From: Planctomycetaceae bacterium
GTDB lineage: Bacteria; Planctomycetota; Planctomycetia; Pirellulales; Pirellulaceae
Reading direction: 5' to 3'
DNA length: 64,000 bases
Assembly (NCBI GenBank): GCA_005778405.1
Contig: SXOA01000096.1
Span: 1 to 64,000, forward strand
Shown here in pieces: positions 1,108 through 10,864 of this stretch. The translations under genes were made by a program, and so were the position numbers. Numbering within the stretch: the first letter of the stretch is position 1; every line of letters begins with the position of its first letter. A model generated the notes under the pieces. That model had not been told where the DNA came from. It saw only the letters and a program-made list of their open reading frames with translations, and made no database searches.

Positions 1108-1527
1108 ATGTCAGGCAGGTACTTCAAAATCGTCGCCCTCGGTGCAATTCTTTTGCACCTGGGGGATGGTCTGCTGGCGTCCTGGGCCCATTCGCATGGG
1201 CCCCACGGTGAACACCTGACTTGCCACCAGGCGGCGGAGCATGCTGGCCATCACCATCATGGCGGGTGCGCGGGGCACAGGCACAATCACAAACATGCTG
1301 AGTGTGCCGAGCCGGTTGAAGGGGAACCTTCTCTGCCCGGGCATGATGACTCCGACCACTGCGCCGCCTGCCGCCATTTAGCCCAGGCCGCCGCGCACCA
1401 GTTTGTATTGACCGAGTTGCCGACCGCCCACAAGGTCGTGCCGCTTTGTTCCCCTATTGAGCTGGCCGAACCCAGCTTGCCGGCTCATGCCTATCAGTCT
1501 CGGGGTCCCCCAGCGATTGCTCTTTAA
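1108..1527 (+). CDS. Histidine-rich secreted or membrane-anchored protein
   Basis: 139 aa. Residues about 6-26 form a hydrophobic N-terminal segment (IVALGAILLHLGDGLLASW), a signal peptide or anchor. The middle is extremely rich in His (about 21 in the protein), with clusters AHSHGPHGEH and GHHHHGGC, and several Cys, including a CAAC pair near residue 90. This composition suggests binding of a transition metal such as Zn, Ni, Co or Cu outside the cytoplasm; that function is inference. It could be a small accessory protein of a metal efflux system, but no transporter is adjacent. It stands alone between a DinB gene on the other strand and a DUF1559 gene. No family is recognised with confidence. 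The opposite-strand frame is judged a shadow because the His clusters and hydrophobic leader make sense only in this frame. Confidence 0.6.
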   Translation: MSGRYFKIVALGAILLHLGDGLLASWAHSHGPHGEHLTCHQAAEHAGHHHHGGCAGHRHNHKHAECAEPVEGEPSLPGHDDSDHCAACRHLAQAAAHQFVLTELPTAHKVVPLCSPIELAEPSLPAHAYQSRGPPAIAL

Positions 1528-2533: not shown

Positions 2534-3505
2534 CTACTGCGAGTTCGAGCGGCTTCCTTCGGGGCTGGCGGCGATCGGTTCGTCGAATTGCTTGGGGCGG
2601 GCAGCCGTAAGGAAGCCGAGCTTGTAGAGCTCGGTCTTGAGCTGGCGGAAGTGATCGAAGCTGTCCGGATAGACCCAGATGGTGACGGTGGTCCGTTTGG
2701 GGTCGCGCCCGCTGAGGCGGCTGCGGAACAGAGAGTTGCTCTTCAGCGATTGCTCGGAAGGCTCGCCGAGATTGTCTTCCGCATCCACGAGATAGATTTC
2801 TTCAAAGACCACGCTGTTCCCTTCGCGCCGCAAGCTATAGCGGGCTCCAAAACCGTCCAGCACCGACAGGGACTCTTCGATCCGAGGCTGGCTGCGGAGC
2901 TTGTCGACTTTGCGGGGTGCGTCCTTTTGCATGGAGTCGATCATCTCCATCATCGGGACGTAGGTCAGCCGCCCGCCGAGGAGCCGGAAATGGACCTCCT
3001 GCCCAAAGACTGTTTTGGCCATCGGCGTGGGCAAGTGCTGCAGCACGGTGGGGGATTGCTTGATCGTGGCGGTCAACGTCTGCCCCAGCCGCTGCAGCTC
3101 CCCCTTGGACTGAATGAGATCCTGGGCCAGGTCGTACTGGACACGGTCTTCCGTCGTCATCGCCTCGCGGCTCTTGGCAAGCTCTTGCTCGGCCAGGGCG
3201 ACGACGAGCTGCAACTGGTTCCGCTCATCTTCGCGAAAGCCGTGCTCGAGCGCCTGCCGGTTAATCTTTCCTTCCAACTCCGCCATGCTCCGCTCCACGT
3301 CGTCGGCGGCCGCTTCGGCAGCAGCGACATCCACCTTGGGCGCCGCCACGGGAGGCGGAGGCAACTTCCCGACGATGAAGGCGTTCTTAGCATGAGCGCC
3401 GACGACCATGACGAGGATGATGAGGATCCCCACCAGGTTGGCCGCCACATCCAGGAAGGAATCCTGGCCGGGCATTGCGGCATGTGGGTTGCTTGTTCGT
3501 CTCAC
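2534..3505 (-). CDS. ExbD/TolR-like membrane protein B (second partner of the ExbB operon)
   Basis: 323 aa from a GTG start at 3505-3503. The start overlaps the stop of the upstream gene by four bases (GTGA), and AAAGGA lies eight bases before it, so translational coupling is likely. Residues about 14-36 form one membrane helix beginning SFLDVAANLVGILIILV; Asp19 sits where ExbD/TolR carry their proton-binding Asp. A predicted coiled coil follows (about 55-150), then a small alpha/beta region and a C-terminal stretch (TVTIWVYPDSFDHFRQLKTE) that resembles the C-terminus of the neighbouring protein (SVDVQPGAEDRFAELKSN). The two proteins therefore look like diverged paralogues. It is longer than ordinary ExbD (about 140 aa). 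The periplasmic part probably reaches into the envelope; the process driven is unknown. Confidence 0.72.
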   Translation of the reverse strand: MRRTSNPHAAMPGQDSFLDVAANLVGILIILVMVVGAHAKNAFIVGKLPPPPVAAPKVDVAAAEAAADDVERSMAELEGKINRQALEHGFREDERNQLQLVVALAEQELAKSREAMTTEDRVQYDLAQDLIQSKGELQRLGQTLTATIKQSPTVLQHLPTPMAKTVFGQEVHFRLLGGRLTYVPMMEMIDSMQKDAPRKVDKLRSQPRIEESLSVLDGFGARYSLRREGNSVVFEEIYLVDAEDNLGEPSEQSLKSNSLFRSRLSGRDPKRTTVTIWVYPDSFDHFRQLKTELYKLGFLTAARPKQFDEPIAASPEGSRSNSQ

Positions 3506-5538
3506 CGTAGTTTCCTTTGGATCTCGATGCCGCTGCCGGTGAGATTCGACTTCAGCTCCGCGAAGCGGTCTTCCGCCCCCGGCTGCACGTCCACGGAAAG
3601 CGCCGGCCTCCAATATCCGCCGTCGACGGCGATTCCCCAGGAACGCATCTGCCGCTGCACTCCGGCGACGAGAACGTCGAGCTCCTGGGAAGTCATTTCG
3701 GGCGAGAGGCCAATCTCCTGCGGGCGGCGGTCCTCGCGCTCGGGTAGCAGGATGAGCTTATCTTTCTGCACGGTGACGCGGATGGGACGAGTGACGCCAG
3801 TCACGTGCCGCTGGGCTTCGGGAAGGCCCCAGTTCTTTCCCTTGGCGCTGGTGCCGGCTCCACCGCGCCCCTTAGCCGTCTTCTGCGAAGTGGCAGGAGG
3901 GGATTGGTCTGCTGCGCCCAGGTTCACGCCAATGTTGGGCATCGCTTGTCCGCCCGACGGAGAAGCGCTGGGGGAGCCAAACGAACCTGCGCCTGCCGCG
4001 GCTCCGCCACTTGCGCCGCCACTGGAACCGCCGGATGTGCCGGAAGCTGTTCCGGAACTGCCGCTGGGGTTGTTGCTTGGGCTGGAGTTGTTAGTGGAAC
4101 CCGCGTTCCCTGGACTCGATGTGCTTCCACTCTCTGAAGTGCCGCCTGGCTTTCCACCGGCAATTGAGCCAGCGCCTGCGGAAGATGCACCTTGGTTCGG
4201 CTGGGCAATACGAAGTCTATTGGGACTTGCCGAGCCGGAATTGCTTCCACTGACGCCATTGGTGTTGCCGCTGCCGGAACCGCCGGTTCCTGTGCCAATA
4301 TTACTTGTTCCGGCGAGTCCGACGGGATTGGGTGGATTATGATTGCCATCACCAGACCCATAGGGACCGCTCGCCGAGCCTGGGCCTATGAGCGGGCCGC
4401 CGCCAGCCTCTCGTTCAGGCGTCGCACTTGCGCCGCTGCCGCCGTCGCCGGTTCCAAAACCCCCGACGCCGCTGCGACCTCGCGCTGCCCCAATTCCATT
4501 TCCGCTGCCGCCGCCAGTCCCAGCGCCGCTACCTGCCGCAGCAACCCTTTGCCGTTGTCCTTCGGGATCATCCTCGGGCGCAAAGGCGCGGGGGACTCGT
4601 TCCCGGATGTATTTGCGAGGCATGTCCCTGGCGAGCACCGTCTGGCGTTTGCGGGCCTGGGCAATTTCCCGGTTCATTACCAGGTCGAGATTCGGATCTC
4701 GCGGGCCAAAGTCCAGTTTCCTTTCCTCGGAGATGAGCTCGTAGCCGAACTCGTCCTCCCAGAACTTCATATAGCTGCGGGCAGCGCCGTAGGCGACCAC
4801 ACCGCTGGGCCGGACGACGAGCAGCGGATAGGGCTCCGCCGCCTTTCCGCCGGTCACTTTCATGATGTACTCCCGTTTGACCCGCAGGGCGGCATCGAGC
4901 GGGTTACCTGGTCCTGGTTCTCCCCGAAAATCGTCCAGCGTCAGCAGCACACCTTCGGGCTGAATGACGACACCCTCGGCGACACACTCCACGTAGATGG
5001 GCATTCGCCGCGTCCCGTTGGGTCCGTCGTAGGGGATCAAGGCGTACCATTTTTCGGTGTTGGCTGCTTCCTGCTGCTTCTTCTTCTCCAGTTCGTCCTT
5101 CTTTTTGGCGAGCTCGTCCTTCACTTTCGCAAGTTCGTTCCTGGCCAGATTCAGGTCTTCCTCTTTGGCCTGTTTGCCAGTTTTCACCTGCTCGAGGAGT
5201 TCCATCAACTCCTTTCCCTTGGCGTTGAGCCGGCGGATGTGGTCTTCGAGATGGCTGAGGGCGAGGCGCGAGTTTTGCAGCTCTTCCTGCCGCTCTTTGC
5301 GGGAGTTTTCCAGTTGCTCCTGCCGCCAGCGGGCTTCCTCCAGGGCTTGCTCTTGCTGCTTCAGCACTTCCGCCGAAGGGACCGACTGCCGGGCATGCTC
5401 TTCGCGGGCCTGGGCGCGGGCGCGGTGGATGACGATGGTCAAAATGATAATCAGCGCCCCGATGGTGCAGAGCAGCACATCGAGGAACGAGAAGAGCTGA
5501 AAGGCGATCTCACCTTTGTGACTGCGTCGGCGACTCAT
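3502..5538 (-). CDS. ExbD/TolR-like membrane protein A with coiled coil and Gly/Ser-rich linker
   Basis: 678 aa. The ATG at 5538 is chosen over a GTG six bases upstream because GGGAG lies nine bases before it. A short basic N-terminus is followed by one membrane helix (about 13-35) starting FQLFSFLDVLLCTIGALII, with Asp20 in the ExbD proton-site position. Next come a long charged coiled coil (about 40-150), a folded region (about 155-300), a strikingly Gly/Ser/Asn-rich low-complexity stretch (about 325-560), and a C-terminal domain (about 575-678) shared with the downstream protein. It is much larger than classical ExbD. It lies between the ExbB gene and the second ExbD-like gene on the same strand. 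The linker is probably an extended periplasmic spacer; that is inference. Confidence 0.72.
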   Translation of the reverse strand: MSRRRSHKGEIAFQLFSFLDVLLCTIGALIIILTIVIHRARAQAREEHARQSVPSAEVLKQQEQALEEARWRQEQLENSRKERQEELQNSRLALSHLEDHIRRLNAKGKELMELLEQVKTGKQAKEEDLNLARNELAKVKDELAKKKDELEKKKQQEAANTEKWYALIPYDGPNGTRRMPIYVECVAEGVVIQPEGVLLTLDDFRGEPGPGNPLDAALRVKREYIMKVTGGKAAEPYPLLVVRPSGVVAYGAARSYMKFWEDEFGYELISEERKLDFGPRDPNLDLVMNREIAQARKRQTVLARDMPRKYIRERVPRAFAPEDDPEGQRQRVAAAGSGAGTGGGSGNGIGAARGRSGVGGFGTGDGGSGASATPEREAGGGPLIGPGSASGPYGSGDGNHNPPNPVGLAGTSNIGTGTGGSGSGNTNGVSGSNSGSASPNRLRIAQPNQGASSAGAGSIAGGKPGGTSESGSTSSPGNAGSTNNSSPSNNPSGSSGTASGTSGGSSGGASGGAAAGAGSFGSPSASPSGGQAMPNIGVNLGAADQSPPATSQKTAKGRGGAGTSAKGKNWGLPEAQRHVTGVTRPIRVTVQKDKLILLPEREDRRPQEIGLSPEMTSQELDVLVAGVQRQMRSWGIAVDGGYWRPALSVDVQPGAEDRFAELKSNLTGSGIEIQRKLR

Positions 5539-5568
5539 GTCCACAAACTCCCGGCTTCGAGTCTTGGA

Positions 5569-6663
5569 TCACGCAGCCTTGGCGAGTTGCGAATGGCGGG
5601 CGGTCAGCATGTGAATCGCCGCCGTCAAGCCATGCACGGCCTGATCGAACTCCTGGGACTCGCGGAGCAGCTCCAGGTTATCCGCCAGCCGCGCCTGGAG
5701 TTCGAGCAACCGCTCGTCCGCCGTGAAGAGCTTGGCCATCTGGGCATTCGCCTGGTTTATTCTGTCGAGACGCTCCACGGTCACCTCCATCTGGGAGGCG
5801 TGTCCCGCGATGGTGTTGGACCACAGGTCCAACTGACTCTGCTCACGCTGCTGCATCGACGCCAACGTGGCCTGCTGCGCGGATTTGACGGCGTCCAGGA
5901 AGGGGGTGATTCGGATATCGGTCGTGGCGAACCGATTGAGCAGCTCGTTTTCGAGGAGCGAATTGACATCGCGGACAATGTTGTCTTCGTGACGTTCGAC
6001 CAGGAACAGAAAGAGCATGGTTGTGATCGACGCCGAAAGGGCCACACACGTGGTGTTAAAGGCAGTGCCCATCCCCGTCACCATCGTCGGCAACTGGGCC
6101 ATGAGCTGATCCGACGCCAGACCATTCAGCGCGCCGCCAAAGTGAACGACCGTTCCGAGGAGTCCCAGAACCGGGGTCACGCCAGCCACGAATCGAGGAA
6201 ACGAATAGCTGGCATGCGTCTCGTTGCTGTCCCGCTCGGCGAGCTCCAGCAAGTACTCTCGAATGCCGTCGGCCGAAGCCCGTTCACTGACATATTTGAG
6301 CGCCAGCCGCAGTCGTTTGCCAAGTAGCGTCCCTTGCAGCCAGCCGGGAGATTCGTCGAGTCGCTGGCAAAGTTCGCGGGCATTCGTAGCTGGTTCCAGC
6401 CCTTCGATAGGGGGCAGGAGATCCTGGCCGAACGCCTCTCGTTCGCGCCCCAGGCCCAGAAACCGGATGATCAGATGCGCCGATGACCAGAAGAACAACA
6501 GGACGATCACATATTCCGTGACATGCTCCGTTGTGTACTTGTGGATCATCGTCCCCTGGAACTTGGGCTGATGAATGAGGGCGTAGAACGCCACGCTGAC
6601 CAGCGTCGCCCACAGCAGGGGCGTCTTGAGGAACCGCGAGACCATGTTGTTCCAGGACGTCAT
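5569..6663 (-). CDS. MotA/TolQ/ExbB proton-channel family protein
   Basis: 364 aa. The ATG at 6663 is preceded by a near-perfect Shine-Dalgarno (GGAGGAAGGAA), so the in-frame extension upstream is rejected. Two N-terminal membrane helices (about 11-30 and 45-68) are followed by a cytoplasmic loop. The conserved ExbB/TolQ core pair is RFVAGVTPVLGLLGTVVHF and GMGTAFNTTCVALSASITT, with the Pro-x-x-Gly-LLGTV and T-x-x-G pattern of the pore helices. The C-terminal 120 residues are helical, probably coiled coil. Such proteins form the pentameric proton channel that powers ExbD/TolR-type partners. Two such partners follow directly (31-base gap, then a 4-base overlap). A 7-bp stem hairpin (6690-6707) lies in the leader just ahead of the ribosome-binding site. 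Confidence 0.88.
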   Translation of the reverse strand: MTSWNNMVSRFLKTPLLWATLVSVAFYALIHQPKFQGTMIHKYTTEHVTEYVIVLLFFWSSAHLIIRFLGLGREREAFGQDLLPPIEGLEPATNARELCQRLDESPGWLQGTLLGKRLRLALKYVSERASADGIREYLLELAERDSNETHASYSFPRFVAGVTPVLGLLGTVVHFGGALNGLASDQLMAQLPTMVTGMGTAFNTTCVALSASITTMLFLFLVERHEDNIVRDVNSLLENELLNRFATTDIRITPFLDAVKSAQQATLASMQQREQSQLDLWSNTIAGHASQMEVTVERLDRINQANAQMAKLFTADERLLELQARLADNLELLRESQEFDQAVHGLTAAIHMLTARHSQLAKAA

Positions 6664-10130: not shown

Positions 10131-10864
10131 TCCGCGAGCCCCAAGCGTAAGCGCGGGGAGTTTTCGACTTAGCTTAGCGGCGCGAAGGGCTCGCTTTTCA
10201 TTAAGCTATTCTCTCATGGCTTGGTGGCTCCTCACCAATACGACGTACGGCACCTGGCTTCCCGGGGACCCGCGCGGCTCGATCACTTCGGTGCGGGACG
10301 AGCGGAAGGATGATCCACCGAGCAAGGTCCGGTTCGAGCACGATCTTCCCGGCCAGGAACCCGAACCGTACATCCCCGGCCTCTACCGGGCGTCCCTGGA
10401 GCAGTTGAAGGGGCCTCCCACTTACCTGGACCTGCCGCAGGCGAAGCTGGTCCTGGCCCAATTCCAGGAGACGGCCGCTTTTCGCGGTTGGCTCCTGCGA
10501 GCCGCGGCAATCATGGGCAATCACTTTCATCTGGTGGTCCGGGGGCCCGATGAAGTCGATCCGGCGAAGATGCTCGCCGACTTCAAGGCCTATGCCACGC
10601 GGAGCCTGAATCGCCGTTACGGCGTCCCGCCGTCCGAAACGTGGTGGACTACGCGAGGCTCGAAGCGGAAGCTCAATACCGACGATTAATTCACCACGGC
10701 GATCCGGTACGTCCTGGAGAAGCAAGAGTCGCCGCTAGTGATCTTCGATCGCGAAAAAAGCGAGCCCCCTTCGCTTAGCGAGCCCCAAACGTAAGCGAGG
10801 GGAGCTTTCTTCTCTAAGCTAAGCAGCGCGAAGACTCCCCGCGCTTACGCTTGGGGCTCACGGA
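10131..10864 (+). mobile_element. RAYT/REP element with 30-bp terminal inverted repeats
   Basis: The left end 10131-10160 and the reverse complement of the right end 10835-10864 match at 29 of 30 positions (core GAGCCCCAAGCGTAAGCG). A further, direct-orientation copy of the core with a few changes is at 10778-10804. Subterminal parts containing TTAGCTTAG at 10171-10179 and CTAAGCTAA at 10814-10822 are also inverted. The element carries one tyrosine (Y1) transposase-type gene. It begins five bases after the stop codon of the cytochrome/DUF1553 gene and ends 13 bases before the DUF1501 start, so it fills the junction of a normally adjacent pair. Confidence 0.8.
10216..10794 (+). pseudogene. REP-associated tyrosine transposase with in-frame stop
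   Basis: The open part (10216-10689, 157 aa) has the N-terminal WWLLTNTTYGTWLPGDPRGS block, the HUH-type metal motif NHFHLVV (about residues 102-108) and the catalytic Tyr in FKAYATRSLN, typical of the Y1/TnpA_REP family that binds and cuts single-stranded REP hairpins. The TAA at 10687-10689 falls inside the conserved C-terminal helix. Translation past it continues TTAIRYVLEKQESPLVIFD, the standard family C-terminus, up to a TAA at 10794 inside the flanking repeat. The gene is therefore probably inactivated or C-terminally truncated by one nonsense change; suppression or a sequencing error are alternatives. It is flanked by the REP-like repeats it would act on. Confidence 0.75.

Follow-up and report, generated by a model that had tools for sequence, protein, structure and literature searches.

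The window, that is, the whole 64,000-nucleotide stretch of DNA analyzed in this study, encodes an ExbB/TolQ/MotA-type channel subunit together with a long and a short ExbD-like partner, and this trio is a conserved unit and a core operon of the class Planctomycetia. On balance, we favor the interpretation that these three proteins form a proton-driven 5:2 motor, akin to MotAB, ExbBD, and TolQR, whose axle is asymmetric. The window itself, with an Asp in the membrane helix of both partners, is an exception within the family. Motors of the 5:2 type are themselves known (PMC9389320); new here are the trio, its usual single Asp, and the joint switch of ExbB type and long-partner helix, and no paper on any of these was found in the open-access literature.

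Gene layout and protein architecture

An earlier sequence-only reading of this DNA had described an ExbB gene (5569-6663) followed by two overlapping genes, and both the coordinates and the overlap were borne out (Table 1). The best start of the long partner is ATG 5538, giving 678 aa with D20 within LFSFLDVLLC, and that of the short partner is GTG 3505, giving 323 aa with D19 within DSFLDVAANL; this GTG overlaps the long-partner stop as GTGA and was preferred to an upstream TTG start, which was rejected. The same reading had seen an SFLDV membrane Asp at the aligned position of both window partners (D20 in the long, D19 in the short), coiled coils in both, and a Gly/Ser/Asn linker in the long one; the first was confirmed, and the models place predicted coiled coils in both proteins and predicted disorder along the linker. 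Within the short-partner helix, D15, F17, D19, N23, V25, and G26 were invariant in 55 sequences. The channel subunit matched Pfam MotA_ExbB (PF01618; E 3.8e-12, 46.5 bits versus a cutoff of 22.9), and the pore-helix threonines of the MotA/TolQ/ExbB family were present, with T171 and T204-T205 aligning with TolQ and conserved in functional relatives.

TABLE 1 Features of the trio in the window and related loci in other genomic sequences
Feature	Position	Strand	Basis or remark
ExbB/TolQ/MotA-type channel subunit, 364 aa (P0001)	5569-6663	-	PF01618 match; HFG/AFN subtype
ExbB pore-helix motif TVVHFG (T171, H174) of GTVVHFG	6136-6153	-	Alignments; aligned to TolQ GTVWGI
ExbB pore-helix motif AFNTT (N203)	6049-6063	-	Alignments; AFDTT in most Ala-type relatives
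Long ExbD-like partner, 678 aa (P0002)	3502-5538	-	Adjoins short partner, 41/41 fetched neighborhoods
Membrane helix with D20 (codon 5479-5481), long partner	5386-5487	-	Predicted helix 18-51; profile matches short-partner helix
Coiled coil, long partner, residues 56-160	5059-5373	-	Predicted model
First periplasmic domain, long partner, residues about 176-311	4606-5013	-	Predicted model; related to second domain
Gly/Ser/Asn-rich disordered linker, long partner, residues 319-559	3862-4584	-	pLDDT < 50 almost throughout
Distal domain, long partner, residues 563-678, possibly ExbD/TolR-like fold	3505-3852	-	Z scores versus ExbD/TolR
Short ExbD-like partner, 323 aa (P0003)	2534-3505	-	59/60 relatives
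Membrane helix DSFLDVAANLVGIL with D15, D19 (codon 3449-3451), short partner	3374-3463	-	Predicted helix 15-44
Coiled coil, short partner, residues 60-148	3062-3328	-	Predicted model
C-terminal domain, short partner, residues 156-316	2558-3040	-	Possibly ExbD-like fold plus inserted beta element
Displaced ExbBs of genus g247	L300 4610-6214; L301 4253-5842; L302 5045-6580; L303 8863-10623; L304 8303-9835; L309 4890-6419		
Family f96 loci	L230 3766-7136; L232 4101-7345; L233 3488-7167; L247 521-5265		
Two-gene system	L266 3581-6093; L268 2-2216; L270 3859-6031; L271 3454-5653		
Paralogous locus L096	4629-5522; 5538-6860; 6935-7771; 7768-8676		
Second paralogous trio	L100 5435-9008; L248 3101-6881; L249 4704-8374		

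In profile comparisons, the helix and coiled coil of the long partner align with those of the short one (hhalign 96.7%, E 4e-10); the N-terminal halves of the two proteins are, on this kind of evidence, paralogous. The long partner's own two globular domains likewise align with each other (hhalign 87%, E 3.6e-6). The notion of a related C-terminal domain in both partners, put forward from the letters alone, stood in outline: the helices are related, as are the two domains of the long partner, and the C terminus of the short partner shows a weak fold similarity via ExbD only. For this C terminus, the top structural match was ExbD 8PEK (Z 7.5, 86/98 residues, rmsd 2.9), with the next, unrelated domain at 5.7, and it was VIA re-alignment alone that ranked ExbD first; the vWA fold was absent among the structural matches listed, an absence that excludes nothing. 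The distal domain of the long partner matched ExbD 8VGC (Z 6.5) and TolR 5BY4 (Z 5.8) and was tied with unrelated folds near Z 6. Such middling Z scores (7.5 and 6.5) weakly suggest ExbD/TolR-like domains in the short-partner C terminus and at the tip of the long partner. Neither partner matched Pfam ExbD (PF02472) at E 1, a genome search with PF02472 retrieved nothing at the trio locus, Pfam and NCBIfam yielded no domain in either partner except coiled-coil noise, Foldseek against PDB gave no significant match for the partners' domains, and no sequence relation was found when the periplasmic domains were compared with 21 ExbDs by hhalign. An HMM built from five ordinary ExbDs matched one Asp-type long helix, in family f18.

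Among the window neighbors scanned (DinB, DUF1559, PSD1/PSCyt, IS200-like, and DUF1501), no TonB, Pal, or OmpA-like gene was found, in agreement with the sequence-only reading. The window also holds a small open frame rich in His/Cys (1108-1527, plus strand; HGEHLTCHQAAEHAGHHHHGGCAGH), which has no Pfam match and is possibly metal binding, and, directly downstream of the PSD1/PSCyt gene, the open frame of an IS200-like transposase (10216-10689, plus strand).

Conservation of the trio and its usual single Asp

A neighborhood survey, as proposed in the earlier reading, revealed that the trio is kept as a unit; one outcome that this reading had named as refuting it, a trio lacking such conservation, was thus not seen. 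The short partner was present in 59 of 60 sampled relatives, almost always as a single copy, the long-short pair occurred in order in all 41 fetched neighborhoods, and ExbB accompanied it in 40 of these. Within the class, a profile search detected the short partner in 122 of 149 genomes; elsewhere in the phylum it was hardly found, and the named relatives with the trio belong to Pirellulales and other Planctomycetia. No other neighbor was conserved in more than 12/41 neighborhoods, higher counts being antisense frames of the trio, and no conserved neighbor betraying the motor output was found in these 41 neighborhoods. In addition, TonB, TonB-dependent receptor, TolA, TolB, and Pal genes were not detected among the trio neighbors in the 41 neighborhoods and the window.

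The idea that Asp in both partners is the design of the system did not hold for the family, whose members as a rule have Asp in the short partner alone and Ala (or Ser/Thr) in the long one. The short-partner Asp was found in 108 of 109 distinct loci (the remaining one was unread), and Ala occupied the aligned site of the long partner in 97 of 102 readable loci. Because more distant families of the class carry Ala, Ser, or Thr at this site, the neutral residue in the long helix is probably ancestral. In the order, 248 of 297 genomes matched a DNA pattern for the Ala helix; all four Ala codons are used, which indicates that the residue itself is kept. The pattern for the Asp helix gave 11 matches among the order's genomes, 8 of them real, and these counts are lower bounds, as the strict pattern missed some Asp-type helices (genus g247 and G037).

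Paralogous systems were also observed. A distant paralogous locus, L096 (C15), lies in the window's own genome and combines an ExbB-like and a GYF-like gene with two partners whose helices read SLFSFQDIITSVTG and LDLLLDTICNLFGG (Table 1). In other genomes, a second paralogous trio has PFLSVLACVIG, with Ser, in its first partner and DSLLDTMFNV, with Asp, in its second, and its ExbB carries AFDTT or AFNTT.

Joint change of ExbB type and long-partner helix

Asp-type long helices occurred only with a distinct ExbB subtype. This new type is marked by GTV-x-HFG and AFN[T/A/S]T, and most Ala-type ExbBs have GTV-x-GI[TS] and AFDTT. The pairing with one ExbB clade holds even where that ExbB lies elsewhere in the genome; for instance, in families f18 and f19 the new-type ExbB is present on the other strand or elsewhere. 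The window ExbB clusters with the ExbBs of Asp-type lineages (support 100/99), outside the ExbBs of its own family, but the short partner and the long-partner body of the window are sisters of those of L102, an Ala-type member of Pirellulaceae (100/100), which argues that ExbB and the long helix changed together on a vertical background. An assembly chimera in the window is unlikely, since other genomes show the same joint switch.

Mapped by parsimony onto a tree of 51 short partners, the Asp state requires 6 changes, at least 5 of them on supported branches, and the ExbB type, assigned by clade and motif, was concordant each time (L155 was omitted, its ExbB not being on the contig). An independent-pairs sign test over the five supported pairs gave a p value of 0.0625, and the strength of the coupling lies in the pattern, the eroded remnants, and a passed prediction rather than in this value. 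A scan of 241 genomes in the window's family revealed one further real Asp helix, in G671. This genome, found by its Asp helix alone, has a new-type ExbB adjoining the operon divergently, and the old in-operon ExbB has lost its pore motifs (GTV to GGI, with the TT site gone); the relatives of G671 in the same genus are Ala-type with intact ExbB pore motifs. The Asp helix had predicted a new ExbB, and the prediction passed. Independently of G671, genus g247 still has an eroded old ExbB in the operon. These displaced ExbBs of g247 lack the pore motifs yet have full open frames of 509 to 586 aa in six genomes, and they may have a new role.

Conversely, when 297 genomes were searched for new-type ExbBs, 21 proved to have one. 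In these genomes, readable long partners carry Asp (f18, f19, genus g247, and G037), with the exception of G414, a close relative of G671 whose new-type ExbB stands alone, whose long helix has Ala, and whose operon still holds an ExbB with intact motifs and odd substitutions nearby. Read from these features, G414 looks like the step preceding the switch, and the coupling of ExbB type and helix is therefore not instantaneous. No Ala-pattern match was found in G212, G235, G220, G229, and G249, which have the new ExbB, and the two Ala-pattern matches in G228 are unrelated sequence. A real Ala-pattern match thus remained in 1 of the 21 new-ExbB genomes (G414) versus 246 of the 276 others (Fisher p < 1e-14, uncorrected for kinship). 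In at least five lineages, the long helix changes state along with the ExbB type, which is good evidence that this helix contacts ExbB, and we consider that it almost certainly touches the ExbB ring.

The His of the new-type ExbB lies one turn from the pore threonine in the alignment with TolQ, and, judging by this position, the ring's own charges may decide whether one or two axle Asps are wanted. AFD/AFN as a simple reciprocal partner of Ala/Asp was considered and dropped, as the ExbB site is Ala or Gly in a small number of Ala-type ExbBs; the paralogous trio pairing AFN with Ser also contradicts such a rule.

Motor model, alternatives, and known systems

Considering the paralogous helices, the paired coiled coils, the constant co-occurrence, and the ring contact, the simplest model places a long:short heterodimer inside an ExbB pentamer. 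The pentamer would enclose the membrane helix of each of two ExbD-like subunits, one long and one short, and the two subunits would be joined through their coiled coils. The short partner always has the proton Asp and the long partner usually has Ala, which would leave one proton site normally; in the window lineage and at least four others, the other subtype has replaced ExbB and the long helix bears Asp, for a total of two sites. In addition, the long partner probably acts as a TonB or TolA would, its flexible linker of ∼240 residues carrying a second folded domain for which the cell wall or outer membrane could be within reach. The tip domain, being possibly ExbD/TolR-like, hints at a TonB/TolA-like role, and the long partner may combine an axle and a TonB-like arm. 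Stoichiometry, proton use, rotation, linker reach, and target are features that we infer. The heteromeric motor proposed in the sequence-only reading is well supported, the trio being kept as a unit and the long helix co-varying with the ExbB type (at least five lineages), but its two-Asp design is not. For the class as a whole, we see about even chances that the trio is a 5:2-type motor with an obligate heterodimeric axle and one proton site, in which repeated ExbB swaps force or allow the return of the second site.

The strongest alternative, which we regard as unlikely, is that the axle is a short-partner homodimer and that the long partner stands outside the ExbB pentamer like TonB or TolA, attached via an ExbD-derived helix whose Asp or Ala would have no proton role. 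That the long helix usually lacks Asp and that the linker and distal domain look TonB-like both fit such an arrangement, and co-variation with ExbB would be expected of it as well, since TonB and TolA helices also contact the motor (PMC12204202); indeed, similar helices that co-vary with ExbB could nonetheless bind it at different places, pore versus periphery. However, the long and short helices are close paralogues over the whole length of the long one, which regains exactly Asp at the aligned site together with the new ExbB, and the paired coiled coils suggest a heterodimer, against a peripheral long partner.

In family f96, the long and short partners are kept next to no ExbB, and their membrane helices are different and unrelated looking, with no motor helix, which suggests a separate function for the periplasmic pair. 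If extended to the whole family, this would make the partners mainly a periplasmic scaffold or tether, with the ExbB link regulatory or dispensable and no motor formed, a reading that we find improbable: elsewhere ExbB and the short-partner Asp are kept, displaced ExbBs are replaced and not simply lost, and f96 could use another ExbB in trans, which weakens the scaffold reading. The nearest ExbB in f96 belongs to a separate two-gene system, and the proposal that f96 is devoid of any motor is not secure, as another ExbB is present there. The two-gene system itself pairs an ExbB bearing AFDSTLLAL with a single partner, EDSFVAVVVTKLTGALLFIL, that has Ala at the expected Asp site (Table 1). Two separate homodimeric motors with a common ExbB (ExbB5-long2 and ExbB5-short2), as discussed for AglQ/AglS of Myxococcus, for which hetero- or homodimer was undecided in 2022 (PMC9389320), are very improbable, since a long2 axle would be without any Asp in most relatives and the long and short genes are always kept together.

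Under the heterodimeric motor model, several known systems invite comparison. The trio shares with ExbB-ExbD (Ton) and TolQ-TolR a MotA_ExbB pentamer-type subunit, a single-helix Asp partner, and possibly an ExbD/TolR-like periplasmic domain. Unlike these motors, it has two different partners, long coiled coils, and a second domain behind a linker of ∼240 aa; moreover, its partners have no Pfam ExbD match, the Asp is usually in one partner, and no TonB/Tol genes lie nearby. With AglR-AglQ-AglS of Myxococcus gliding, the trio shares one ExbB/MotA-like subunit and two different single-helix partners (PMC9389320). AglQ and AglS both reportedly carry Asp (PMC9389320), and two Asp-bearing partners are true of the window but not of most relatives. 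In further contrast to AglRQS, the trio has no gliding genes nearby, is specific to Planctomycetia, and has a related domain duplicated on a linker.

For helix-vWA partners, heterologous pairs have been predicted into a TolQ-like pentamer with direct force transmission, and an axle and a reach arm have been proposed as one protein (PMC12204202). The trio resembles them in the heterologous pair, and the linker and distal domain of the long partner suggest that here too axle and reach arm are one protein. A further likeness is that PVC loci with two different tolR-like genes occur among the helix-vWA systems (PMC12204202). However, ExbD rather than vWA is the best structural match of the trio, neither TPR nor vWA genes are conserved next to it, and both Asps are reportedly conserved in the helix-vWA pairs, unlike in the trio. 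As for ZorA-ZorB (Zorya), the trio ExbB has weak ZorA matches (E 7e-7), but its partners have no ZorB match, and it is a core gene of a whole class and not part of an island; with no further conserved neighbor, Zorya identity was rejected.

In the 5:2 motor model, two equivalent proton sites alternate, the steps being of 36 degrees and each turn taking ten ions; a turn on five ions would, according to the authors, demand an entirely new model (PMC9389320). If the reading presented here is true, a natural one-site motor and its two-site sister species would offer a test of the 5:2 model without engineered subunit mixtures, and the trio would bear on whether two paralogous partners form one axle, as has been asked for AglQ/AglS. 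The trio also draws attention to a core machine of the Planctomycetia cell envelope that is so far unstudied.
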